From NCBI GenBank assembly GCA_903813345.2, contig CAIIXF020000011.1, positions 17,281,754-17,345,753 on the forward strand: a DNA stretch of 64,000 bases, written 5' to 3'. Below the pieces are notes generated by a model. That model was not told the origin of the DNA, searched no databases, and saw only the letters and a program-made list of their open reading frames with translations. The stretch comes from Owenia fusiformis. Taxonomy: Eukaryota > Annelida > Polychaeta > Sabellida > Oweniidae. The translations under genes were made by a program, and so were the position numbers. Shown piece by piece: positions 1 through 58,934 of this stretch (within the stretch, counting starts at the first letter, position 1; the number at the start of each line of letters is the position of its first letter).

Positions 1-482
<482 letters not shown>

Positions 483-1964
483 CCCATCACAATAGTGGCA
501 CGTTTTAAAACCTCTGTCGATAGGATTCCTGTTTTAAGTTATTTCTGTTCAACATCAATACAGAAAACTCCCCTATGACTCCTGGTTCAAAAGCTCGCCT
601 ATTTTCAAAATGGCCGCCATTTTTGTCTCGCGAAATTCACTTTTGACTGGCACGTTTTAAAACTTCTGTCGATAGGATTCCTGTTTTAAGTTATTTCTGT
701 TCAACATCAATACAGAAAACTCCCCTATGACTCCTGGTTCAAAAGCTCGCCTATTTTCAAAATGGCCACCATTTTTGTCTCGCGAAATTCACTTTTGACC
801 CATTTCCTAGCTTTACAAATAATTCCAGGTGTCCTACATTGTAAAAATCTGTGTCAATGTAAAGAGTAGATATATGAAATAATTTTGTTACAAAAAATCA
901 GCGAAAAATTATATCTATTTTTTTATTTTCAGCCATTTTAGTTAACATTGATTTGTCCATCTGACTTGTGAAATCCACTTTTCCGTCAACAACAGTGGCA
1001 CGTTTTAAAACCCCTGTCGATAGGATTCCTGTTTTAAGTTATTTCTGTTCAACATCAATACAGAAAACTCCCCTATGACTCCTGGCTCAAAAGCTCGCCT
1101 ATTTTCAAAATGGCCGCCATTTTTGTCTTGCGAAATTCACTTTTGACCTATTTCCTAGCTTTACAAATAATTTCAAGTGTCCTACATTGTAAAAATCCAT
1201 GTCAATGTAAAGAGTAGATGTATGAAATAATTTTGTTACGAAAAATCAGCAAAAAATTATATCCATTTTTTTTTTTTTTTTTTCAGCCATTTTAGTTAAC
1301 ATTGATTTGTCCATCTGTCTCGCAAAATCCACTTTTGGACCATTTGCCTTAAACCCTCTGTCGATAGGATTCCTGTTTTAAGTTAATTTTGTTCAACATC
1401 AATACAAAAAACTCTCCTATGACTCTTGGTACAAAAGCTTGCCTATTTTCAAAATGGTCACCATTCTTGTCCCGCGAAATTCACTTTTGGCCCATTTCCT
1501 AGCTTTACAAATAATTTCAGCTGTCCTGCATTGTAAAAAGCCATGTCACTGTAAAGAGTAGTTGTATGAAATAATTTTGTTACAAAAAATCGGCAAAATA
1601 TTATATCAGTTTTTTTTATTTTCAGCCATTTTAGTTAACATTGATTCGTCCATCTGTGTCTCAGTCAGTCCAAAAAAGTGGCAAGTTTTAAACCTCTGTC
1701 AACACTTTTTAAATCCTCTGTAGATAGGATTCCCAATTTGAAATAATTTTGTTCAACATCAATAAAGAAAAAAAAACCTGTGACTCCTGCTTCAAAATCT
1801 TGCCTAATTTCAAAATGGCCACCATTTTTGTCTCGGGAAATTCACTTTTGGCCCATTTCCTAGCTTTACAAATAAGTTCAGGTGTCCTGTATTGTAAAAA
1901 GCCATGTCTTTGTAAAGAGTAGTTGTATGAAATAATTTTGTCACAAAAAATCTGCAAAAAATTA
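483..1964. repeat. ~350-bp tandem repeat, four to five degenerate units
   Basis: The phrase 'gataggattcctgtttt' recurs near 519, 670, 1018 and 1362, and a diverged form occurs near 1723. Spacing is about 345-360 bp, with one short ~150-bp unit. Each unit contains 'caaaatggccgccatttttg', 'tcctagctttacaaata' and a T-rich stretch before 'cagccattttagttaac'. No coding potential is seen. The array is cut at 1964 by the mariner relic. Confidence 0.85.
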
Positions 1965-27200: not shown

Positions 27201-29514
27201 TGGGTCACATTTGCTCCCATTCATCGGCCAGCGCCTGGCCGATTGAGTGTTTTGCTCAATATTGTATTCAATTTTGAACAAAATACTCAATCGGCCGGGC
27301 GTCGTAGTGAAAATGTGACCAAGGTATAAAAGTCACATTATGTCTATATTTCTAACCAAAGCAATATTTGATATCTCTTATTGACTTACAGGTTCTATCA
27401 ATTGTGAAAGCAGGATGTGGCATCAAGTCAGTTGCCTTGGACCTTGTTAAGCAGCAGGCCTTGTTACAGTGGCTTGGACAGGCAGCTCAGTCATGGTAAG
27501 AACACAAGATTTCATTCTGTGTTTTCATTAATGCCTTGGTCACATTTGCTCCGATTTTCACTACGGCGCCTGGCCGATTGAGTATTTTGTTCAAAATTGA
27601 ATACAATATTGAGCAAAACAGGTGCCGGCCGATGGATCGGAGCAAATGTGACCCAGGCATAACTAACAGATATGATCCTTTGTGATTAGCACTAGAGCAT
27701 TTGTGAATTGCAAGGTGTCTACTATTTAAATTTTTGGGCCAGCCATATCACAAAATATTATCTGTCATTTTTCCATGCTTTATATTCATTTTCATCACTA
27801 TCATTTTTCAAAAATCCTGTTGTACAATATAAGTGTAAACTTGTTGTAAAAGGACCATAGATTAGAAATATAAACATGAATTAATAAAATAAATATTTCA
27901 ATATAGCCACCAAATTAAGGAATTGATTTCAAATCATGAACGTTTTTGAGGGAAACTATGCAATCAGTTCTAATGCATGTCATATTGTTATTCCAGTCGT
28001 GATCCAAAGGGACATGAGATTGTATTAGAAATCTTAGATATCTTGTGGAGAACTGTTCTAGGGGACAGAGACCATAGCTCAGATATTAGCTGCCTGCCCA
28101 TGCACTTTACTACAGACATGTATAACACTACACTGGCCCTTCTAAATACATTCAGGTATGTCTGTTTGTTTGTTTGTTTTATGTCATCGCCAGAAGTGGT
28201 GACATATTGTTATAGTCTCCAACTTTTTTTGTGGATTGTGATTGGTGTTTGGCATCCGGCGTCTGTAACAAATGTTACAACTGGCAGGTGGTGACATTTT
28301 TCATGTTGAAAATGCCTTGTTTTTGAAATGGCCATTGTAGAATATAACCTAGTGAACTCAAGAAGAAGAATATTGTGAAGTAGATTCCAAATACGTTATC
28401 ATGTCGTTAATGCGTTTCTATTTATTTAGTTTTAAGATCTTTTGCATGAAATAAGTTAATTTAACACATATACTCTTATTGGTAATCATAGTTCCCACTG
28501 GGATGAATTGACCGTTTCACATAAGCTTCTAGGCGAGGAAAGGAATTTTGAAGCTGATTAATAATTTGAAGTTCCACATAATATTTATTCAATTTGGACT
28601 TTCACTCGTTGTCTTATATTTTCAGGGGAGAGATGTCTCTACCAAGCTTTAAGCACCTACTAAAACTACTATGTTCCATCAGGGGACATCTCAATGCTAC
28701 AATGTTGCAGTACTCTAAGAGTTATATGCAGTGCTTCACTCTTGAGGTCACCCCTCACCATATTCACTCCTTACTGTCTACATGGGCCACCAGCAACCAG
28801 GATCAGCAACTAAAAGCAGACTTAGATAAAATACAGGGGGATGTTCTCTTGGATGTAACCGCAAGTTATAATATGAAACACAGTGGTGATGTGGAATGTC
28901 AAGTGTTACTGGCACAACTGCTGACCTCCTGGCAACCTGGTAGTGGAAACAAACACCAAATTGATAAAATGGAAATATATTTGGGGTGTGTCATGGTTAA
29001 GTGGCTTGTGGAACTCATCCAGAGTGCAAAACCAAAGTTAGAAAATTTATCTGATGTTATAAATTGGATAAAAGTCAACAGTCTATCGACGTCAAAATTG
29101 GGCAACGCTTTGAAATCATGTTTCGTCGGGCAGCCACTAGATGGCACTCCATGCCTTGCTGCCAAATTATTAACTGTGTTTAGTTTAGCGGATTCCGGAA
29201 AACAAGGTACAGAATCAACAATGAACATGAGATACAAATTGAAATCAAACATTAATGATATATTTTTTGGTCTAATGGATCATTTACAGATTCATTCCTC
29301 AGGGACACAGGTGGATGTGATTGATAGACTCTCTAGTAAAGATTATAACGACATATTGAAGGATGTGTTGCCCAAAGTTCAGGCCAAGTGTGAGCCAGGA
29401 GATAAACATGCGATTGATGTACTGAGTGTGTTCATAGCAGAATTATGGAGTAATTGCCATGCTCCACAGCATCTGAAGATAATTGTGAAAAACTATTTTA
29501 AGTTTGTGGTATAA
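21282..29514 (+). CDS. URB1: URB1 (Npa1-like nucleolar pre-ribosomal protein), C-terminal part
   Basis: Twelve exons join without a break: 21282-22332, 22885-23212, 23421-23945, 24307-24469, 24679-24772, 25289-25449, 25864-25975, 26263-26369, 26772-26921, 27392-27495, 27997-28155 and 28626-29514. They give 3843 bp, 1280 aa and stop, and every junction phase fits. Vertebrate URB1 is about 2270 aa. The piece aligns from near its middle to the end, including HFSVYLGAYGAT, YDPCFILPLF, SSHDITMRKLGYHTLARF and the FPCIITLFLGKAVELLLKP / EFYKFFNSSALE blocks. The product is an alpha-helical repeat scaffold that helps assemble early 60S pre-ribosomes in the nucleolus. The first exon starts at an acceptor, so upstream exons must exist, but none were found in 1-21281. 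An acidic Asp/Asn/Glu-rich linker lies near residues 20-55 of this piece. The last two exons are duplicated at 35924-37476. Confidence 0.9.
22517..22688. mobile_element. pogo/Tigger-like MITE
   Basis: It begins CAGTGAAACCTGTAAAGTGG after TA and ends in 'gcaaggttttactg'. The interior has repeated 'gtggaacac' motifs facing both ways. It sits in the URB1 intron after the first visible exon. The same family occurs at 30906-31000 (and its copy near 38443) and at 45998-46178. Confidence 0.75.
24481..24615. mobile_element. Truncated MITE, 'CTGTAGATTGGGTTAATTTG' family
   Basis: It starts CTGTAGATTGGGTTAATTTG after TA and runs through 'ggcgcccgctttaatttggc' to about 24615, where it stops without a matching right terminus. 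A full-length relative is at 53457-53738. It lies in the URB1 intron after the exon ending at 24469. Confidence 0.75.
27197..27326 (+). mobile_element. PIF/Harbinger-like MITE, copy 1 flanking a URB1 exon
   Basis: TAA|TGCCTGGGTCACATTTGCTC opens and ...GTGACCAAGGTA|TAA closes. The TAA repeats fit the 3-bp TWA targets of PIF/Harbinger elements. The interior is a 'ggccgattgag' palindrome. It lies upstream of the 104-bp URB1 exon 27392-27495 and is nearly the exact reverse complement of the copy downstream of that exon. Confidence 0.8.
27532..27659 (-). mobile_element. PIF/Harbinger-like MITE, copy 2 in inverted orientation
   Basis: TAA|TGCCTTGGTCACATTTGCTC ... GTGACCCAGGCA|TAA, with intact 3-bp duplications at 27529-27531 and 27660-27662. 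Its reverse complement matches the 27197-27326 copy almost throughout. More distant relatives with the same 'agtcacatttg' ends occur at 42784-42936, at 30655 and near 38190. Confidence 0.82.
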
Positions 29515-31206
29515 AATCAAATGCATGAAGATATTTTGATTATAACAAATCTCTTAATAATTTAGGTTAAAGAGCCTTAAAATACTATAATGATATGTAA
29601 ACATATGACTTGTGACATATTATTGTTGTTTTTGATTGATATCTGTTAGAAAGTGTTACAATACATTTGCAGGTGTTGACATCTTATCAATAGGATAGTT
29701 TCTAAATAGCAGAAAAATCTAGTGCTGCCATCTTTTATTCAGCTTTTAACTTGGGCTAGAGTTCCATTCACTTACATGCTAAAATCTTGAAAAAGTGGCT
29801 TAATTTCATGGTTTATCAAAGTGTGTTCGTTGAATCTGTATAAAACTTGAATGTTATACAACATGATGACCCTGTTTATTATGTACATGTTGTGATTAAA
29901 CATGCAAATGTTGATTGACATACAAATAATCCAAGGTTTTAAAGAATTCTAGCATTGCATCTATGGACATTTGGCCCGAGTTTTTTTAAATTTTCATATA
30001 AGATTATTCAAATTGCATAACTATGCAAATCAAAGCTATTGTAGGAGAAAACATTTCACTGAATTCAAATATGCCATTTAAAAGGAGGTAATGTAAGTCA
30101 TTCGAGGTCTAATATGCAAGTCTCTTAAAATCTCACGAAAAACGAGATTTAGCGAGATTTCAAAAGCTACATGGAAACTGTACTATAACAAAATCATTGT
30201 TACATTTCATATGCTTTGATGAAATGTTCATGCTTTCCCAATTCATTATATCGTCTAATAAGCTACCTGGAAAGAGTAGTAGACATGAGGGCAAAAAAAA
30301 GTATGACTCCCAGTTTCCAATTCCGTAGAGCACAAGCAGAATAGTCTTTGTCCACGCATTTGCAATATCTTTGCATATTAATAGATAAATTATTCTGAAA
30401 GTATAATGCTTTAAAACTGAATGATTTACAAAATTAACAAAATTGAGGTTTTAATATAAAGTCAGTTTGACAGACTATAAAAACACCAGCCTAGTTTGAT
30501 TAAGCCCATGCTGTAGTTAAAATCAGTTAATAACTGTGTCTGATAATGTGTCTTGTTTATTGTAATAAAAAATATGACGCCAACATTGAAATAAATTATA
30601 TACATGTTCTTGATTTTTACTAAAATACGATTCTAGGGGATTTCAATGTATAGTAATGCCCCAGTCACATGTGATCAACGGCAATGCACTGCGGCTGTAA
30701 CTTCCCAAAATCGAGAGAAATGCAAAGCATATATAGATTATCTATATCGATTAAATCATATGCCAAATAAAATGAATATGAGAGCGATCAGTCATATTTT
30801 CAAGACCTCAATGATAAAATCATCCCGAGATTATACCTTGTAATTAACATCTTCCAACATTTAAAATAGCTGCTATTGACATCAGATTGAGCAAACATGA
30901 TTATGCAGTTAAACCTGTCTAAGTGGAACGTCCGTGGTACCTATAAAATATATTCCAGAGGTCTTATACTTCTAGAAGTGTTCCACTCGAAGTTTCACCG
31001 TATGATACTTAAACCATATCACCTAAGAAATGCTGTCTATATCATATGTGAATGTCAAAAGTTTACAAAAGGTTCAACTGTTAAGGATGTAAATTGTATG
31101 ATAAGACATGTAGAGATATAATAGGCGACGGTAATTCTTGTTATACCAAGTACAATGTAGTCAATTGCTACTTGTAATAGAAAGTGTACATTAATTCCAA
31201 ACATGT
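29515..31206. other. Intergenic spacer between convergent URB1 and BtaA-like genes
   Basis: This holds the 3' ends of both genes. No coding exon is recognised. A pogo-like MITE fragment lies at 30906-31000 ('cagttaaacctgtctaagtg' to 'gtttcaccg') and a partial Harbinger-like MITE begins at about 30655 ('taatgccccagtcacatgtg'). Both are also present in the duplicated copy (near 38190 and 38443), so they predate the duplication. Confidence 0.65.
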
Positions 31207-32896
31207 TTATAATACTGTGGCCACCCTGAGCGGCTCCCAAATGGGTGAACGGTCCAGTAGTGTTGCAGACGCTTCTAATTCATGTTCAACCTTAATTGTC
31301 TTATTAATCATTTCACTTGGCCAGTATTTGGGCATTCCTTTCAAATTCCAAAACACTATTCTTCCACCTGGATTGCTGATTTTAGCAGCTGATTCAATTG
31401 CTGCATTGTGGTTGGCTAGGGACAACCAATCTGCTATGTTGGATACACAGATTCCATCAAACTTTGGTTGTTGAGTGCTTGGGTACTTGGCAAGCCAATC
31501 GGTGAGTTCTCCATGGACCCACTGCATACGACCAATGCGATCTTTTAGTGTTGCAAAGTTCTCCTCTTGGAGATATTCTCTGAGCTTGTATTTCCCAGAG
31601 TATCCGCCAGTGAAAAAGTATTCAGCAAAATGATTTTCTTTCATGGGAATGGACTTATAAATGTCTACCATTCTTCGGTAGAATAATGTTCCATAATCCA
31701 CATCTGGTATGATGGAATTATCGAAATCCTTCAACTGATTGTAGGCCCTCCTATACATTGCTTTTCTCCAGTGTTTTGTGTTAATCACTTCTTCAAAGAA
31801 GTTGGCCTGTTCCTCAATATCATCGCCCATTCCCAGGAATGTTTTGATATCACGTTTATCAAGTGCAACATAAACCATATCCTCGGCTGCATTTCTAAAA
31901 ATTGTATCAAATGTTCCACAGTGTATAACGCCAAACTCTATTTCAGATTTCATTGAGTCCCAAAATTCTCTTACATCTGGTGCCAGTGCTTTCCTGATTT
32001 CTTTATATATTCGGACACGTTCCTCTGGTTTCACATTTTCTCTGTCAACCCCAGCAAAGTCAATAAATTCTTGGTGCGTCAGATGTTTGATGCAAGCTGC
32101 CTGTAACTTTGCCAAATGCAGCTGTGGAATTGATAAATCAAGGGCCACAACATCAGCAGGGTCGTCTAGGAGAAGAGTCATAGCATTGGCACCACATGAT
32201 GCAATCGTGAAGATTCTGTCGCCACTTTTGATTTCCATTGCATGCCTTATTGGTGCAATATCTTCCCAATTCTGAATAAAGAAAAATCGAATTCTAACAA
32301 TAAAGAATACAGGTGCTGAGTTCGGACAATTTGAACAACACCCAACTCAAATTCTATCAATGAGAATTGCATAATAAGATTAGGTGAATACCAAATGTAC
32401 ATGTTGTACTTTGGAAAAACAGTTTGCTGAAATTATCAAAGTAAACAAATGATTGTGTTCTGATGTTACTTTAGTCTTGCTCAAAGACTGTATCCACCCC
32501 CACCCCCCACATTCACTCTCTTTACCTGGCAATATACAGAGAGAAGGATGAAGGGGGAGGGGGACTACAGGGTATTTTAAGCAAGACTAATGTTACTTCT
32601 ATTAAGTCTGTTTTGTAATTGTATAACAAATTAAAGTATACGAGCTGGACCAAGTTTGAATAGTAGGCTAATGACAATCACACTATGCGTGGCTTTGAGA
32701 GCAAATATCATTTTCGACTTTCTATGATTGCCGTGCACGAAGACAGACTCACCATAGCAAACAAAATATTCGAATTCTGTTCTTTGTGTGCTTGTTTTAC
32801 GTCTTCGGAATACTTCAATTTTTGCAGTCCACTATATGCTTTATAATATTTTGAACTTCTTCCGACCATATTTGAGATACGTCTAAGCAGTGCCAT
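31207..32896 (-). CDS. BtaA-like (DUF3419) aminocarboxypropyl transferase, copy 1
   Basis: Exon 1 (32896-32753, 48 codons, ends LFAM|gtgagt) and exon 2 (32271-31207) join in phase 0 to 402 aa, close to the usual ~400 aa of bacterial BtaA. BtaA moves a 3-amino-3-carboxypropyl group from S-adenosylmethionine to diacylglycerol, the first step to the betaine lipid DGTS. Visible family marks are NWED at 49-52 (like YNxxWEDP), the SAM loop DRIFTIASCGANAMTLLL at 66-83, VVALDLSIPQL from 89, and PGGRIVFWNL near 349-358. The site that usually reads SDHxDW appears as SNIADWL at 325-331, so activity may differ. No BtaB-type methyltransferase domain is attached. It is convergent with URB1 and intact, with a paralogue 7.5 kb away. 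An animal gene of this type is unexpected; the intron shows that it is a resident nuclear gene. Confidence 0.78.
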
Positions 32897-33366
32897 TTTG
32901 CTTTTTGATTTAAACCAGCATTCGATCTGCAGTTAAAATTGACCTTGGTTTATTGTTTCTGTAGGTGTCCTTTAAGAGGGTACGTCCAATGTAAAATTGC
33001 AACGGTTTAGTTCTTTTATAACCAGCATGTCCTTCTACATGTTCTAAGCAGCAAATAAATAAAGTTTTGTCAGTTTTAATATATATTTGAAAGCATCATA
33101 TAGTGTTGACGTTGTATGAATTCTCTGAACTTTGAAGCTTTCAAGTTGTGATATCTATGTGCGCCTGTATTGTTTTTATTTCATGTTTTACTTGTGTAAA
33201 TACTCGATATGTAGAACGAACAGGCATGTTGTCCTTCAATCCCTAGTTGAAAACAACCTGGACGACTGCATCATTCTGATACGCATCACAACTTTCTGTT
33301 TTACAACTTAAAATGTTTCTTGAAAATTGATGTCTCAAAGTGGGACAACACATGCAATCTTATATA

Positions 33367-34340
33367 CAGGGTGGTCAAAAAAACGGCAACCCTAGTTTTT
33401 CCTAATATCTTTGTCATTCTAAGGAATAACTCCCTGATATTTTACACATTTGTACATCATTCAATTTCCTACCAACCTACCATATTTCATGACCATCGGA
33501 CTGATAGTCACAATATTACTGCATTTTAAGCAACATACCCCAGGTGGCCACTTTCGGGCTATCTGAGCTGGACTGTTATCCAAATGGACTCCATTTCCAA
33601 CTTGATGCACTGGTAAACTATAACAATTATGTATTCTTGGGGAGCAAAGCACTTTATGAAGTAGTGGGGAGGCACCTTCACACAGACAGATGCACAGTTT
33701 AGTGTGTTCTCAGAAGATAGGGTCCTTTACCTTTGATGATGCTAACAGATATGCAATAACTGTCAACATCAAACTCTATTTTGTGATTCCCATGGAGTTC
33801 TTGGGGACTTTAGGTGAACCCAGGGGGGTTGAAAGGCAGCAACAGTGGTTCCAACAAGACAGAACCATACCCCATACACCAAATGATGCACAATATTGGC
33901 TTTAAGACCACTTCAATGACCACATTATCAGCAGTACAACAGACAATGAATGGGTACCCCATAGCCCAGATATGGCCCCATTTAATCTTTACCAGTGGGG
34001 ATACCCCAAAGATGGAGTGTAGGGTAATAACACCAGAAAGACATTTGACCTCAAAATAAAGATCACATGTGTCATTCAGGCCATACTTGCTGAGGAATGC
34101 TGTTATGTCATTGACAGGTTTGGAAAACATGTGCAGGTTTGCCTACAGCACGATATTGGAAAACTGGGGCACCTTGTTTAAAGTGCTGTAACATTGCGAC
34201 TATCAGACCAATGTTCATAAAATTACACAGTCTAGTATGAAATTGAATGATGTACATGTGTGCCAAATATCAGGACGAAATTTCCAAAAATGACAAAGAT
34301 ATGAGGAAAAATTAGGGTTGCCGTTTTTTTGACCACCCTG
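33367..34340 (+). mobile_element. Mariner-type relic inserted after the segmental duplication
   Basis: CAGGGTGGTCAAAAAAACGG opens, its complement closes, and TA flanks both sides (33365-33366 and 34341-34342). Arms are similar for over 100 bp ('cctaatatctttgtcattct'). A plus-strand trace of the transposase catalytic end remains (WFQQDRTIPHTPNDAQ near 33850, PHSPDMAPFNLYQWGY near 33960), but the N-terminal part is lost. The other duplication copy has the bare site 'cttatatatgacaccaag' at 40893-40910. Confidence 0.9.
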
Positions 34341-35098
34341 TATGACACCAAGACCTCTTGTACAGTTTCCAAATAGAAGTTTAGTGGCAATAAGATCATT
34401 TAACATACTTATGAACCCCTGTTTTATAAACTGTCAAAGATATGTTTTTCATTTTGAAGGGTCTATTGAAACTTCAATTTGGATCACTAAACATAGTCAC
34501 GTTTTGCCTTAACTTGAATGAAGTTTAGATCTATTCATATAAGACTACATTCAGGTGTAATAAACTCAGGGGAAAGGCATTAAATTCTGAATGACGAAAT
34601 TAATAAAATCGTGGTTGGATCTCATATTTTACATTTGGAAAGAAAAATATGAGATGAAAGCTTGATTGCGAAAGCTAAAAAATATTCTGAATCCCGCAGA
34701 TCATTGTCCTTTTACGAATAAAAAGATTGTGGGTTGATCTAGACATTGCCAAGAGGTCTCCCAAAGATATTTGTGAGATCCTCCTTTTCCATCATTTAAA
34801 AACATCCATTCTAAAATGTGAACTATTTAATGTTTTGTTTCAAAATTAGTTTACATGCACTAAGTCTGCTTTTACCTAGTATATGAAAAGTTTGAAAAGG
34901 CCTTTCTTTGATCCTCATTGCCATGCTTTTGATATTACTTTGACTTTCTGTAAGTTTGAGGTGAAATGGGAACTCCATTGTTGCATCTTCCATTCTGGTT
35001 TTGTTGGCAATCAAAGTATTTTTCTTCATGTTTTAGATTTGAATGTTATTCTAGCCTTGTGTACCAAATTATAGTTCGTTCTACGAGAATGATCTGTT

Positions 35099-35699
35099 CA
35101 TGTATATCCAAAATTATGGCATATTCTATACTTTCTATACTTTCGAACTGCTTTTTTTAATTATACTTTTTTCAGTCTTAGACGATTGGACTCTCTAAAG
35201 TCTATACATGTCTATACTTTCTATACTGTCTATACTTTTGATTTTGGTGAATTCCCTATGTCTATACTTTCGATACTTTCTATACTTTACATTTTGGTGA
35301 AATCCCTATGTCTATACTTTCTATACTTTCGATACTTTCTATACATTGTAAAACAATATGTGACGTCATAAGTTTCTTGGTCACTTTCGATTTTGGTGAA
35401 TTGCCTCAATGTATTGTAAAACAATATGTGATAGAAAGTATAGAAACTATAGACATCTAATTTGTCAAAGACAGTTTTGTGAAAAGCAGATAGAAAGTAT
35501 AGAAAGTATAGAAACTGTAGACATCTGAAGACAGTTATGGGGAAAAGCAGATCGAAAGTATAGAAAGTATAGAAACTATAGACATCTGATTTGTCGAAGA
35601 CAGTTATGGGGAAAAGCAGATCGAAAGTATAGAAACTATAGACATCTGATTTGTCGAAGACAGTTATGGGAAAAAGCAGATCGAAAGTATCAATTTCAG
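35099..35699. repeat. CTATACTTT satellite at the duplication junction
   Basis: From 35120 to about 35345 the plus strand is filled with 'tctatactttctatacttt' and 'cgatacttt'. From about 35430 to 35690 the complementary 'gaaagtatagaaactatag' recurs in a ~60-bp unit ('acatctgatttgtcgaagac', 'agttatggggaaaagcagat'), about four times. The two halves are inverted with respect to each other and flank 'gtaaaacaatatgtga' direct repeats. No gene is present. Confidence 0.9.
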
Positions 35700-35923
35700 G
35701 TGAATTGCAAGGTGTCTATTAAAAAAAAATTATTTTTAAATCCTGTTGTACAATTTAAGTGTAAACTTGTTGTACAAGGACCATAGATTAGAAATATAAA
35801 CATGAATTAATAAAATAGATGTTTCAATATAAGCCGCCAAATTAAGGAATTGATTTCAAATCATGAACGTTTTTGAGGGAAACTATGCAATCAGTTCTAA
35901 TGCCTGTCATATTGTAATTCCAG

Positions 35924-37476
35924 TCGTGATCCAAAGGGACATGAGATTGTATTAGAAATCTTAGATGTCTTGTGGAGAACTGTTCTAGGGGACAGAGACC
36001 ACAGCTCAGATATTAGCTGCCTGCCCGTGCACTTTACTACAGACATGTATAACACTACACTGGCCCTTCTAGACACATTCAGGTATGTCTGTTTGTTTGT
36101 TTTATGTCATCACCAGAAGTGTTGACATATTGTTATTGTCTCCATTTTTTGTGGATTGTGGTCGGTGATTTGTGGTTGGCATCCGGCGTCTGTAACAAAT
36201 GTTACAACTGGCAGGTAGTGACATTTTTCATGTTAAAAATGCCTTGTTTTTTATTTGTTTAAGTGACATATTTGAAATGGCCATTGTAGCATATAACCTA
36301 GGGAACTCTAGAAGAATATTGTGAAGTAAATTCCACATATTTTATCATGTAGTTAATGCTTTTCTATTTATTTAGTTCTAAGATCTTTTGCATGATGTAA
36401 GTACATGTAACACATATACTCTTATTGGTAATCTTAGTTCCCACTGGGATGAATTGACCGTTTCACATAAGCTTCTAGCCTAAGATGCATTGAGAAAGAA
36501 AGGAATTTTGAGGCCGATTAATAATTTGAAGTTCCACATATAATATTTGTACAATTTGGACTTTCACTTGTTCTCTTATATTTTCAGTGGAGAGATGTCT
36601 CTACCAAGCTTTAAGCAACTACTAGAACTACTATGTTCCATCAGGGGACATCTCAATGCTACAATGTTGCAGTACTCTAAGAGTCATATGCAGTGCTTCA
36701 CTCTTGAGGTCACCCCTCACCATATTCACTCCTTACTGTCTACATGGGCCACCAGCAACCAGGATCAGCAACTAAGAGCAGACTTAGATAAATTACATGG
36801 GGATGTTCTCTTGGATGTAACCGCAGGTTATAATATGAAAGACAGTGGTGATGTGGAATGTCAAGTGTTACTGGCACAACTGTTGACCTCCTGGCAACCT
36901 GGTAGTGGAAACAAACGCCAGATTGATAAAATGGAAATATATTTGGGGTGTGTCATGGTTAAGTGGCTTGTGGAATTCATCCAGAGTGCAAAACCAAAGT
37001 TAGAAATTTTATCTGATGTTATAAATTGGATAAAAGTTAACAGTCTATCGACGTCAAAATTGGGCAACGCTGTGAAATCATGTTTCGTCGGACAGCCACT
37101 AGATGGCACTCCATGCCTTGCTGCCAAATTATTAACTGTGTTCAGTTCAGCGGATTCCGGAAAACAAGGCACAGAATCAACAATGAACATGAGATACAAA
37201 TTGAAATCAAACATTAATGATATATTTTTTGGTCTAATGGATCATTTACAGATTCATTCCTCAGCGACACAGGTGGATGTGATCGATAGATTCTCTAGTA
37301 AAGATTATAAAGACATATTGAAGGATGTGTTGCCTAAAGTTCAGGCCAAGTGTGAGCCAGGAGATAAACATGTGATTGATGTACTGAGTGTGTTCATAGC
37401 AGAACTATGGAGTAATTGCCATGCTCCACAGCATCTGAAGATAATTGTGAAAAACTATTTTAAGTTGTTGGTATAA
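35924..37476 (+). pseudogene. Duplicated URB1 last two exons
   Basis: Exon 35924-36082 (159 bp) and exon 36588-37476 (889 bp) have the same lengths, phases and splice signals as URB1 exons 27997-28155 and 28626-29514, and both are fully open. The second acceptor changes the split codon from AGG to AGT (R to S). The larger exon differs from the original at about 19 of 296 residues. By eye, replacement changes outnumber silent ones roughly 2:1, which is close to neutral drift. No promoter or upstream URB1 exons exist here. It could be an inert fragment, or an alternative terminal-exon cassette reached by splicing from 27495 past the first stop and polyadenylation region. Confidence 0.75.
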
Positions 37477-38743
37477 AATCAAATGCATGAAGATATTTTG
37501 ATTATAACAAATCTCTTAATAATTTAGGTTTAAGAGCCTTAAATACTATAATGATATGTAAACATTTGACATGTGACATATTATTGTTGTTTTTGATTGA
37601 TATCTGTTACAAAGTGTTACAATACATTTGCAGGTGTTGACATCTTACCAATTGCAAAATCATTGTTACATTTCATATGCTTCGATGAAATGTTCATAAT
37701 TTCCCAATTCATTATCTCGTCTAATAAGCTACCTGGAAAGAGAAGTAGACATAAGGGCAAAAAAGTATGACTCCCAGTTTCCATTTCCGTAGAGCACACA
37801 GAATAGTTTTTATCCACGCATTTGCAATATCTTTGAATTTTGATCATCATCTACAGAATTTCACCTTTAAAAGATAAATTATTCTGAAAGTATAATGCAT
37901 AATAATGCATGGGGTTTTAATATAAAGTCAGTATGACAGACTGTAAAAAAACAAAAGCCTAGTTCGATTAAGCCATGGGTTTTCTAATTGAAAGCTCATG
38001 ATTAAGCCTATGCTGTAGTTAAAATCAGTTAATTAATTTCTGTGTCTGATTATGTGTCTTATTTATTCTAATAAAAAGATATGACGCCAACATTGAAATA
38101 AATGATATGAAATATATATAGAAATATACACATGTTCTTGAGTCTTGCTAAAATACGATTCTAGGGGGTTTCAATGTATAGTAATGACCCAGTCACATTT
38201 GATCTACGGCAATGCACGGCGGCCGTAACTTCCCAAAATCGAGAGAAATGCAAAGCATATATAGATTATCTATATCGATTAAATCATATGCCAAATAAAA
38301 TGAATCTATGAGAACGCTCAGTCATATTTTCAAGACCTCAGTGATAAAATCATCATCCCGACATTATAGCTAATGTAAACATCTTCCAACATTTAAAATA
38401 GCTGCTATTGACATCAGATTGAGCAAACATGATTATGCAGTTAAACCTGTCTAAGGGGAACATCCTTGGTACCTATAAAATATATTCCAGGGGTCTTATA
38501 CTTCTATAAGTGTTCCACTTGAAGTTTCACCGTATGATACTTCATGTACTTACACCGTGTCACCTAAGAAATGTTGTCTATATCATATGTGAATGTTACA
38601 AGCATACAATGGGTTCAACTGTTAAGGATGTAAATTGTATGATAAGAAATAGGTATAACAGGCGACGGTAATTCTTGCCACACCATGCACAATGTAGTCA
38701 ATTGCTACAAGTAATAGAAAGTGTACATTAATTCCAAACATGT

Positions 38744-40438
38744 TTATAATACTGTGGCCACCCTGAGTGGCTCCCAATTTGGAGAACGATCTAGTAGTGA
38801 TGCAGAAATTTCTAAATCATGTTCAATCTTAATGGTCTTATCGATCATTTCACTTGGCCAGTATTTCGGCATTCCTTTCAAATTCCAAAACACAATTCTT
38901 CCACCCGGATTGCTGATTTTAGCAGCTGATTCAATTGCTGCATTGTGGTTGGCTAGGGACAACCAATCTGCTATGTTGGATACACAGATGCCATCAAACT
39001 TTGGTTGTTGAGTACTTGGGTACTTGGCAAGCCAATCGGTGAGTTCTCCATGGACCCACTGCATACGTCCAATGCGATCTTTCAGCGTTGTAAAGTTCTC
39101 CTCTTGGAGATATTCTCTGAGCTTGTATTTCCCAGAGTATCCGCCAGTGAAAAAGTATTCAGCAAAATGATTTTCCTTCATCGGAATGGACTTATAAATG
39201 TCTACCATTCTTCGGTAGAATAATGTTCCATAGTCCACATCTGGTATGATGGAATAATCGAAATCCTTCATCTGATAGTAGGCCCTCCTATACATTGCTT
39301 TTCTCCAGTGTTTTGTGTTAATCACTTCTTCAAAGAAATTGGCCTGTTCCTCAATATTATCCCCCATTCCCAGAAATGTTTTGATATCACGTTTATCAAG
39401 TGCAACATGCACCATATCCTCGGCTGCATTTCTAAAGATTGTTTCCTGTGTTCCACAATGTATAACGCCAAACTCTATTTCAGATTTCATTGAGTCCCAA
39501 AACTCTCTTGCATCTGGTGCCAGTGCTTTCCTGATTTCTTTATATATTCGGACACGTTTCTCTGGTTTAACATTTTCTCTGTCAACTCCAGCAAAGTCAA
39601 TAAATTCTTGGTATGACAGATGTTTGACGCAAGCTGCTTGTAACTTTGCCATGTGCAACTGTGGAATTGATAAATCAAGGGCCACAACTTCAGCGGGATC
39701 ATCGAGTAGAAGGGTCATAGCATTGGCACCACATGATGCAATCGTGAAGATTCTATCACCACTTTTGATTTTCATTGCATGTCTTATTGGTGCAACATCT
39801 TCCCAATTCTGAATAAAGAAAAATCGAATTCTAATAATAAAGAATGCAGGTACTGAGTTCGGACAATTTGAACAACACCCAGCTCAAATTCTATCAATGA
39901 GAATTGCATAATAAGATTAGGTGAATACCAAATGCACTTTTACAGCTGTTTTGGAAAAACAGTTTGCTGAAATTATCAAAGTAAACAAATGATTGTGTTC
40001 TGATGTTACTTTAGTCTTGCTCAAAGACTGTATCCACCCCCCCCCCCCCACATTCACTCTCTTTACCTGGCAATATACAGAGAGAAGGATGAAGGGGGAG
40101 GGGGAGTACAGGGTCTTTTAAGCAAGATTAATGTTACTTCTATTAAGTCTGTTTTGTAATTGTATAACAAATTAAAGTATACTAGCTGGACCAAGTTTGA
40201 ATAGTACGCTAATGACAATCACACTATGCGTGGTTTTGAGAGCAAATATCATTTTTAACCTTTCTATGATTGCCGTGCTCGAAGACAGACTCACCATAGC
40301 AAACAAAATATTCGAATTTTGTTCTTTGTGTGCTTGTTTTACGCCTTCGGAATACTTCAGTTTTTGCAGTCCACTATTTGCTTTATAATATTTTGAACTT
40401 CTTCCGACCATATTTGAGATACGTCTAAGCAGTGCCAT
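38744..40438 (-). CDS. BtaA-like (DUF3419) aminocarboxypropyl transferase, copy 2
   Basis: Exon 1 (40438-40295) and exon 2 (39808-38744) have exactly the same lengths as copy 1 and give 402 aa. In the 343 residues from the second exon's first Met there are 22 differences from copy 1 (about 94% identity), while the SAM-binding loop, VALDLSIPQL, SNIADWL and PGGRIVFWNL are unchanged. Differences cluster near the C-terminus (for example MIDKTIKIEHDLE) and at AYYQMKDFDYS. Silent differences appear at least as numerous as replacements, so this copy seems to be under constraint, unlike the neighbouring URB1 exon copy. Role and caveats are as for copy 1. A fixed tandem pair could raise dosage or allow substrate divergence. 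Confidence 0.78.
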
Positions 40439-41671
40439 TTTGCTTTTTGATTTAAACCAGCATTCGATCTGCAGTTAAAATTGACCTGGATTTATTGTTT
40501 CTGTAGGTGTCCTTTAAGAGGGTTCGTCCAGTGTGAAATTACAAAGGTTTTGTTCTTTCATAACCAGCATGTCCTTCTAAGCAGCAAATAAATAAAGTTT
40601 TGTCAGTTTTAATATATATTTGAAAGCATCATGTAGTGTTGACGTTGTATGAATTCTCTGAACTTTGAAGCTTTCAAGTTGTGATATCTATGTGCGCCTG
40701 TATTGTTTTTATTTCATGTTTTACTTGTGTAAATACTCGATATGTAGAACGAACAGGCATGTTGTCCTTCAATCCCTAGTTGAAAACAACCTGAACTACT
40801 GCATCATTCTGATACGCATCACAACTTTCTGTTTTACAACTTAAAATGTTTCTTGAAAATTGATGTCTCAAAGTGGGACAACACATGCAATCTTATATAT
40901 GACACCAAGACCTCTTGTACAGTTTCCAAATAGAAGTTTAGTGGCAATAAGATCATTTAACATACTAATGAACCCCTGTTTTATAAACTGTCAAAGATGA
41001 GATGTTTTATCATTTTGAAGGGTCTATTGAAACTTCAATTTGCGTCACTAAACATAGTCACGTTTTGCCTTAACTTGAATAATGAAGTTTAGGTCTACTC
41101 GTATAAGACTACATTCAGGTGTAATAAACTCAGGGGAAAGGCATTAAATTCTGAATGACGAAATTAATAAAATCGTGGTTGGATCTCATATTTTACATTT
41201 GGAAAGAAAAAATATGAGATGAAAGCTTGATTGCGAAAGCTAAAAAATATTCTGAATCCCGCAGATCATTGTCCTTTTAAGTATAAAAAGATTGTGAGTT
41301 GATCTAGACATTGCCAAGAGGTCTCCCAAAGATATTTGTGAGATCCTCCTTTTCTATCATTTAAAAACATCCATTCTAACATGTGAACTATTTAGTGTTT
41401 TGTTTCAAAATTAGTTTACATGCACTAAGTCTGCTTTTACCTAGTATATGAAGAGTTTGAAAAGGCCTTTCTTTGATCCTCATTGCCATGCTTTTGATAT
41501 TACTTTGACTTTCTGTAAGTTTGAGGTGAAATGGGAACTCCATTGTTGCATCTTCCATTCTGGTTTTGTTGGCAATCAAAGTATTTTTCTTCATGTTTTA
41601 GATTTGAATGTTATTCTAGCCTTGTGTACCAAATTATAGTTCGTTCTACGAGAATGATCTGTTGGGGTACC

Positions 41672-57605: not shown

Positions 57606-58022
57606 TCGCGTATATCAACAGGTATTTAGCAATAAAATTAGATATTTATCAATCTTTTTTGTCTCATTTTGTTCTAAAGCTGACACTCGTTAGAATTTTT
57701 TTGACAAGGAAAAGTATATATATTACAGAGAGCAGTACACTGAAACAAACTACTTGATACTACTTGATGAGAAATAATATCAAATATGTATATTTCTAGT
57801 TGCATGTGAAAAGTTATTATTGGTCGAATCATTCTAATAAGCAAGTTATTTTATAACCGAAAGTTAAATTTTGTCATGATGGAAAACACATGAAAATGTC
57901 GAGTTGAAAAACATTTCGCTCATTTCCAGTTTTTTAGGTAAATAAACACATAACTAAACTATAATAACACACAGTGACTCAGTTATAGCTTCAAAGTATA
58001 CATTACTACAACAATCGCAAAT

Positions 58023-58934
58023 ATGAAACCAGGATTAGAAGACTTTGTGAGTGCCCAAAAAGGGAATAACTTTTCTGAAGAAAAAATTGAAAAATCAAAA
58101 CCAAAGGCAAAGCAGAAAGTAAAGTCAAAAGTGGACAAAAAGACAAGTTTTTCAAAAGGGAAAGTAACCAAACATTCAAAACCTAATAGTAGATTTGATA
58201 AGCTTATCAAACAGAAACTTGCTAAGCCTGTACAAAAAAGTGACCCAAAGAAGACAGAGCAAAAATATCTAAATGAATTACAGGCGTCACTTGGTATTGA
58301 CAGCACAACTAAAGATGAAATATCTGAATACTACAAGAACTTAGCTCTTCGCAAGAAAAGCAGCAAAAAGGCAAAGAAAAATAAGAAAAAGGTTGACTCT
58401 ACTTCGAATGACTCTAATAATGTACTGTCACAAAAAACAGTTGTGAAACCTGCACCAGCCGTTGACGTTATTGTTTTTGATGATCCAGCGAAACGAAATT
58501 TTGGAAAGAAGAAAAAAATTATGTCAGCATCTTCAGAGGATGATATTTTAGAGCCAAAGGGAATAAACATGGGACGTGCAAGAGCTGAGATTCTGCAACT
58601 TGTCATAACAGGGCTTGATGGGACCAAAAAAGAAGACGCTAAGCGGGAACTCGCACTCAAGCTAGGTGCAAAACCTCCAAAAAATGAGTATGTGAACTAT
58701 AAAGACCTCCTTGTTATCAACAAGGAAAAGAAAATCAAAGAGGAAGAGAAGCGTGAAATGGATAGAAAGCTTGGATTACGTGTCACAAAGGCTAAGAAGA
58801 AAGAAACAAAGAAGAAAAGTAAAGATGACATTGGATATCTTGATGGGCAAATTGGCAGATACAGAAGTGGAGTACAAGTCATTGACAAAAGGGAGATCAG
58901 AGCTATGTCAAAGGGCAAGAAACAATCTAAATAA
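58023..58934 (+). CDS. C1orf131: C1orf131 homologue (DUF4602), SSU processome component
   Basis: A single open exon encodes 303 aa, close to human C1orf131 (about 290 aa). The N-terminal half is Lys/Ser-rich and disordered, with nucleolar-type basic clusters (residues about 25-65 and 110-125). The conserved DUF4602 part lies near 180-300: INMGRARAEILQLVITGLDG, LALKLGAKPPKNEYVNYKDL, a Lys/Glu helix, MDRKLGLRVTK, then DGQIGRYRSGVQVIDKREI. The human protein is part of the small-subunit processome that folds and cleaves pre-18S rRNA. The start at 58023 is the first ATG in frame, after AT-rich leader sequence. It is intronless here. It is divergent from the zinc-finger gene. Confidence 0.8.
   Translation: MKPGLEDFVSAQKGNNFSEEKIEKSKPKAKQKVKSKVDKKTSFSKGKVTKHSKPNSRFDKLIKQKLAKPVQKSDPKKTEQKYLNELQASLGIDSTTKDEISEYYKNLALRKKSSKKAKKNKKKVDSTSNDSNNVLSQKTVVKPAPAVDVIVFDDPAKRNFGKKKKIMSASSEDDILEPKGINMGRARAEILQLVITGLDGTKKEDAKRELALKLGAKPPKNEYVNYKDLLVINKEKKIKEEEKREMDRKLGLRVTKAKKKETKKKSKDDIGYLDGQIGRYRSGVQVIDKREIRAMSKGKKQSK

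Follow-up and report, generated by a model that had tools for sequence, protein, structure and literature searches.

A tandem pair of DUF3419 genes in the annelid Owenia fusiformis and the genome-wide family to which it belongs

The gene pair in the window

Two genes, here called A and B, lie in tandem on the minus strand of a 64,000-nucleotide stretch of the Owenia fusiformis genome (GenBank assembly GCA_903813345.2, contig CAIIXF020000011.1, positions 17,281,754 to 17,345,753 of the forward strand), which was analysed at its full length and is referred to as the window, with positions counted from its first letter. A preliminary description, made from the letters alone, had reported them as two intact genes, each with an N-terminal intron and 402 codons, for a transferase resembling BtaA, the bacterial S-adenosylmethionine (SAM):diacylglycerol 3-amino-3-carboxypropyltransferase. 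This architecture was confirmed, in that each gene consists of two exons separated after codon 48 by a GT...AG intron (486 nt in gene B, 481 nt in gene A), which are predicted to be spliced into a product of 402 amino acids. The parts of the two genes are the following.

40295..40438, minus strand: gene B exon 1, 48 codons, holding the presequence-like N-terminus and the first DUF3419 residues (ILFAM); recognised by its open reading frame (ORF), its GT donor and a similar exon upstream of paralogues
40352..40438, minus strand: gene B residues 1-29, basic and resembling a mitochondrial presequence in composition and against controls, with zero acidic residues and followed by SE at a putative cleavage site
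39809..40294, minus strand: gene B intron, 486 nt, GTGAGT...TTCAG, with an acceptor-like AG at the equivalent position in other paralogues
38744..39808, minus strand: gene B exon 2, 354 codons and stop, DUF3419 domain (Pfam 6e-45 on the spliced protein; AlphaFold mean predicted local distance difference test score, pLDDT, 93.9)
39797..39805, minus strand: gene B W-E-D, invariant in 101/101 bacterial rows of the alignment (ten divergent rows set aside)
39674..39676, minus strand: gene B Asp 93, at the end of the second Rossmann strand, a likely contact of the SAM ribose by comparison with class I methyltransferases
38963..38980, minus strand: gene B SNIADW motif, compared across rows
32753..32896, minus strand: gene A exon 1, 48 codons, presequence-like
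32272..32752, minus strand: gene A intron, 481 nt
31207..32271, minus strand: gene A exon 2, 354 codons and stop, DUF3419 domain
31426..31443, minus strand: gene A SNIADW motif, compared across rows

Both spliced products match the DUF3419 family, Pfam PF11899, to which bacterial BtaA also belongs, with E-values of 6e-45 (residues 39-364) and 2.8e-44 (residues 39-390) and scores of 154.5 and 152.3 bits that far exceed the cut-off of 28.2, covering model positions 5-341 and 5-374 of 385; the family assignment of the preliminary description is thereby upheld. DUF3419 is the sole Pfam family above cut-off in either product, in agreement with the reported lack of a methyltransferase half, and Pfam scans found no BtaB either fused to the genes or in the seven other window ORFs that were scanned. 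The W-E-D triplet, the Rossmann glycine loop, VALDLS, SNIADW and PGGRIVFWNL are present in both products, and the predicted structure of the window protein has the class I Rossmann SAM fold. A sequence search of solved structures gave no significant match for this protein (best E 0.25), and in an NCBIfam search no model rose above the cut-off. The two proteins are identical at 377 of 402 residues (94%), and their genes differ by 43.2 synonymous vs 27.8 nonsynonymous changes, giving a ratio of nonsynonymous to synonymous rates (dN/dS) of 0.149; the pair is therefore under purifying selection and does not represent chance ORFs.

A genome-wide family with basic N-termini

The window pair is not isolated but part of a family that extends through the genome. 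A PF11899 profile search of the animal's own genome yielded 37 matches, all above the cut-off, and a search with a more distant paralogue (a group 4 protein, see below) yielded 42 matched stretches, merged by hand to about 37-39 places, a number on which the view of a recent gene pair only was rejected. An intact large exon was found in 27 loci, with broken loci and genes with extra introns (L040-L042) excluded from this count; in L022 no stop falls within the large exon. These loci form four deep paralogue groups, whose exon 2 identity to gene B amounts to 64-94% in group 1 (window-like), 49-51% in group 2 (a cluster on C5), 29-32% in group 3 and 31-35% in group 4. In groups 3 and 4, six comparisons gave a defined dN/dS: five lie at 0.16-0.29 (0.20 and 0.16 are examples), and the close pair L028-L029 reached 0.64 on few changes; synonymous sites were saturated in two comparisons. 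Broken loci or fragments with stop codons or frame breaks occur as well (L021, L036, L037, L039, L042 and others). Group 4 (L027-L035) has kept the Rossmann SAM core and lost most of the active-site residues that are invariant across the superfamily, and purifying selection was seen in two of its three comparisons with a defined value.

An acceptor-like AG stands at the homologous place in 34 of 35 loci from all four groups, located before N49 or, in group 3, two codons before the E-D pair; in the 35th locus, L035, the frame reads ...FAFQ-NYIDM, as expected for the common junction. Given that this position is common to all groups, a single intron probably predates the expansion of the family.

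Neither the size of the family nor the mitochondrial-type N-terminus had been seen in the earlier reading. Within their first 26 residues the window genes encode six Lys/Arg and no Asp/Glu. Exon 1 of the other loci was sought by a rule that uses only the exon end and length and ignores the N-terminus, as a repeat of an earlier list in which three low-ranking candidates (L022, L024, L032) had been chosen by eye. This rule returned exactly one candidate in 19 of 33 loci, with all four groups represented, and none in the same 33 loci on the reverse strand. Over the first 26 residues, 17 of the 19 candidates combine three or more Lys/Arg with a complete lack of Asp/Glu, and the remaining two carry a single Glu. 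Such an acid-free basic stretch was met in 116 of 8799 windows of the mature proteins and in 5 of 111 bacterial N-termini, for which the nearest upstream Met was taken as a putative start. Arg-x-Tyr|Ser or Arg-Tyr-Phe|Ser precedes the likely mature start in group 2, in some group 4 genes and in L009, sites which we take to resemble the R-3 type of presequence cleavage; the window genes read Lys-Leu-Lys-Tyr|Ser-Glu at the likely mature start. Taken at its composition, exon 1 very probably encodes a mitochondrial presequence.

Genes A and B themselves are recent tandem duplicates and part of a larger duplicated unit, whose copies were delimited by blastn and form a direct tandem with three pieces 91-97% identical.

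27800..35098, no strand assigned: copy A of the tandem duplication unit, holding two stretches without counterpart in copy B
35729..41663, no strand assigned: copy B of the tandem duplication unit

The last exon (about 310 aa open) of a neighbour gene on the plus strand was copied along with the DUF3419 gene; it lies at 28582-29514 and 36544-37476, and the neighbour gene matched no Pfam family above the cut-off. At 33367-34340, a segment of some 975 bp bounded by inverted ends (TACAGGGTGGTCAAAAAAACGGCAACCCTA...) is similar to a decayed element of mariner/Tc1 type; it is present in copy A only and missing from copy B at a TA site, and was therefore probably inserted after the duplication. Window positions 1-575 are a long simple repeat with a four-base unit, open in several frames, with no gene. 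Further along, FSAF1 (PF15375, 8.9e-20), a eukaryotic ribosome-assembly family, was matched at 57978-58931, and the window as a whole sits in a contig of 37.3 Mb in an assembly of 498 Mb; together with the shared intron position, this bears out the earlier view that the genes belong to an animal chromosome.

Relation to bacterial DUF3419 proteins

Bacterial relatives were sampled by one tblastn scan of genome contigs (20 loci) and by PF11899 searches of the genomes around those loci, in which matches at E <= 0.001 numbered, per genome set, 12/12, 15/150, 23/247, 33/289, 20/194, 7/251, 19/229, 2/47 and 3/145. By score, the full-length bacterial matches split in two: canonical BtaA reached 313-389 bits, and the other class about 124-257 bits. 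The window genes are 24-29% identical to the loci of the contig scan, the best tblastn match being L047. The main trees were built from hand-picked subsets (78 of 138 rows, and 52 rows) of animal and bacterial sequences without eukaryotic BTA1, after four fragments of fewer than 300 aa had been dropped and with six long-branch rows (L046, L107, L145, L166, L169, L171) left out. In the 78-row tree, the 17 animal rows form one clade (100/99), and 30 BtaA rows stand on one side of a branch (100/100) with the animals outside. Forcing the animals inside either BtaA subclade was rejected by the approximately unbiased (AU) test (p 0.012 each), whereas their placement as sister of all BtaA was not (p 0.32), and a single clade of animals with fusion proteins of DUF3419 and a PEMT-type methyltransferase was disfavoured but not rejected (p 0.062). 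The 52-row tree, restricted to animal groups 1 and 2, also set BtaA apart (100/99) and gave the animals a long branch (1.84), weakly joined (70/74) to L168 and L170, from one genome of the phylum of L057, a grouping on which we do not rely. As judged from these alignments, the animal genes lie outside canonical BtaA, that is, outside both of its bacterial clades, and the phylogeny does not sustain an assignment to BtaA proper.

For the active site, per-position counts were made with ten divergent bacterial rows set aside and shown separately, leaving eight positions invariant in all 101 bacterial rows. The window group keeps W50, E51, D52, G75, N77 and N261 (each 8/8), and shares with BtaA the Rossmann SAM loop, Asp 93 (7/8) and W152. 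It differs from BtaA in its score (154 bits against 313-389), in SNIADW, in two substitutions, P279R and Y393W, and in having no BtaB half. The preliminary description had read the SNIADW site as a departure from SDHxDW; SNIADW is indeed present, but the argument has to be changed, for BtaA rows mostly read [L/F]LD[A/H/S][Q/M]DW at this site, with Leu-Asp in 59/59 and hence Asp at the place of Asn, which in the window group is part of Ser-Asn (8/8). Outside BtaA, 28 of 38 bacterial rows read exactly LSDIFEYM (Ser 38/38, Asp 36/38), the PEMT-fusion-type rows read FSN[I/V]FEW with Ser and SN in 4/4, and SN occurs in 6 of the 10 divergent rows, for example as LSNISDWM and LSNALDWV. Across these rows, the SN state of the animals is common to bacterial DUF3419 outside BtaA and appears as no animal oddity. 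Within the animal family the motif varies from SNxxDW (group 1) through SNVTDL/M (group 2) and SNVGDA/V (group 3) to mostly STVPxY (group 4), with the E-D pair and the motif Asp kept in 18/18 rows of groups 1-3. The suggestion that the product or acceptor differs from that of BtaA is supported as a possibility.

Two kinds of bacterial DUF3419 protein outside BtaA are of interest for comparison. PEMT/ICMT-type membrane methyltransferases joined to DUF3419 were found in L047 (4221-6062), L172 (4030-5868) and L173 (4056-5939), each Pfam-tested, and by resemblance in L084, and a diacylglycerol-kinase-like gene adjoins the fusion in L047 and L173. Proteins of this type (L047, L105, L106, and L084 by resemblance) share SN-[I/V]-x-E-W in 4/4, the animals having Asp where the fusions have Glu, and P-[M/I]-K-E-N-Y-F in 3/4, corresponding to P-M-K-E-N-H-F in the window genes; the N-terminal PEMT domain of L047, L172 and L173 has no counterpart in the window genes, which are without a membrane methyltransferase part. 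It is possible that such fusions are one-protein betaine-lipid synthases without BtaB. The second kind resides in isoprenoid- or lipid-type operons of L054 (Gemmatimonadota) and L043 (Rhodobacterales). These proteins are stand-alone like those of the window and share the motif Ser (38/38), but have SD-I-F-E-Y (Asp 36/38) where the animals have SN-x-x-D-W and form a separate clade (24 rows, 100/99). In L054 (72-9763, Pfam-tested) the operon encodes a phosphoenolpyruvate (PEP)-utilising kinase, GNAT, 3-hydroxy-3-methylglutaryl (HMG)-CoA reductase, DUF3419, a membrane protein and MMPL, and in L043 the neighbours are UbiA, a PEP-utilising kinase and an AMP-binding protein, surroundings which hint that the acceptors may be lipids or isoprenoids, either in place of diacylglycerol or in addition to it. 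By ORF resemblance a similar operon is present in L053 and in the Euryarchaeota-labelled metagenome-assembled genome L057, and the L054-type operon is possibly a novel isoprenoid-lipid pathway. The bifunctional BTA1 (BtaA+BtaB) of algae, fungi and choanoflagellates is likewise a eukaryotic protein with DUF3419, but the window genes are without its BtaB half and with a presequence-like exon 1.

Three scans of viral contigs found no viral relatives, and tblastn against phages gave no match; among plasmids, nine records were matched, with identities of 24-32%. A structural search of viral models with Foldseek found a single strong match, BFVD A0A5K0UB36 of Yasminevirus (632 aa; E 2.0e-11, TMq 0.66), whose modelled fold suggests that it may be a DUF3419 protein of a virus.

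Possible functions and significance

The gene pair is real, intact and of ordinary architecture; it is the taxon, the number and the likely compartment that are unexpected. We favour, with a probability of about 0.5, the view that the genes belong to a SAM-dependent, aminocarboxypropyl-transferase-like family of mitochondria, which has expanded in this animal and lies outside canonical BtaA. On this proposal the exon 1 presequence would direct the product into mitochondria and would be removed there, leaving a mature part in which the class I Rossmann SAM-binding core carries a sizeable helical insertion. If it works like BtaA, the enzyme would bind SAM, transfer its 3-amino-3-carboxypropyl group and release methylthioadenosine. 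The group would go to an acceptor lodged between that insertion and the SN-x-x-D-W loop, probably a mitochondrial compound with a hydroxyl group, for instance a lipid. We know of no described animal enzyme for such a mitochondrial SAM reaction.

Several observations weigh against this proposal. P279 is replaced by Arg and Y393 by Trp in all eight window-group rows, at positions invariant in bacteria, and therefore the reaction or acceptor may differ. Ser replaces N261 in group 2, and group 4, in those rows where the positions are visible, has lost W-E, N77, and both the Asp and the Trp of the motif; judging by these residues, at least some family members, such as group 4, may do other chemistry. 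As for the N-terminus, the rule found no exon 1 in 14 of 33 loci and its exon-end condition was written after a first list had been seen, and a basic N-terminus can instead be a membrane-binding helix.

A doubtful alternative is that the DUF3419 fold has been turned to methyl transfer or another SAM reaction, each paralogue acting on its own kind of small molecule. This has in its favour the class I methyltransferase core, the variation of the active-site motif among the four groups, and a large paralogue expansion under mostly purifying selection. It is opposed by the retained E-D pair and motif Asp of groups 1-3, and the only characterised DUF3419 reaction known to us is aminocarboxypropyl transfer. 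Rather unlikely is a true betaine-lipid enzyme, in which the animal protein would make diacylglyceryl-homoserine (DGHS) and a separate animal N-methyltransferase would complete diacylglyceryl-trimethylhomoserine (DGTS). In algae, DUF3419 predicts DGTS in 20 of 21 DUF3419-positive strains (PMC6642084); the bacterial PEMT fusions, two of them beside a diacylglycerol-kinase-like gene, make a partner other than BtaB conceivable, and the sister position to all BtaA was not rejected. However, the animals lie outside both BtaA clades, the BtaA form of the motif is replaced and the BtaB half missing, the presequence points to mitochondria, and a lipidomics review ascribes those betaine lipids that occur in sacoglossan sea slugs and symbiotic cnidarians to algae or symbionts (PMC8708635). 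DGTS synthesis by these genes is one possibility and not the leading one.

That the copies are non-catalytic or decaying relics is highly improbable: several loci are broken or fragmentary, but 27 large exons are intact, and both the window pair and most of the group 3 and 4 comparisons have low dN/dS. Contamination from bacteria or algae, or a transfer in the very recent past, might be thought of for a family mainly described from bacteria, algae and fungi, but its probability is practically negligible in view of the intron position common to all groups, the 37 Mb contig, FSAF1 in the window and the low identity to the bacterial loci of the contig scan; recent contamination or a bacterial contig was rejected on the intron, the contig and the eukaryotic neighbour. 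An old gene transfer into the lineage may nevertheless have taken place.

In the literature, the legend of a BtaA tree names bacteria, algae, plants, fungi and choanoflagellates, and the word "metazoa" is absent from the available text of that paper (PMC10685587). The main text of a compendium of metazoan gene transfers mentions neither betaine nor DUF3419 (PMC13342648). Among the matches listed, titles and the starts of abstracts of openly available journal papers contained no report of an animal DUF3419/BtaA gene.

A DUF3419 match in an animal ought not to be equated with DGTS synthesis as a matter of course, because the family is large, lies outside the BtaA clades and has a mitochondrial-type N-terminus; the family points to a mitochondrial SAM reaction. 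A tentative extension is that animal mitochondria of this lineage carry about 27 intact aminocarboxypropyl transferases in four groups with differing active-site motifs, making new homoserine-type lipids or metabolites. With these genes in hand, the origin of betaine- and homoserine-type lipids in invertebrates becomes directly testable, and if a mitochondrial set of aminocarboxypropyl transferases does exist, marine invertebrates might themselves make some of the betaine or homoserine lipids regarded as "dietary".

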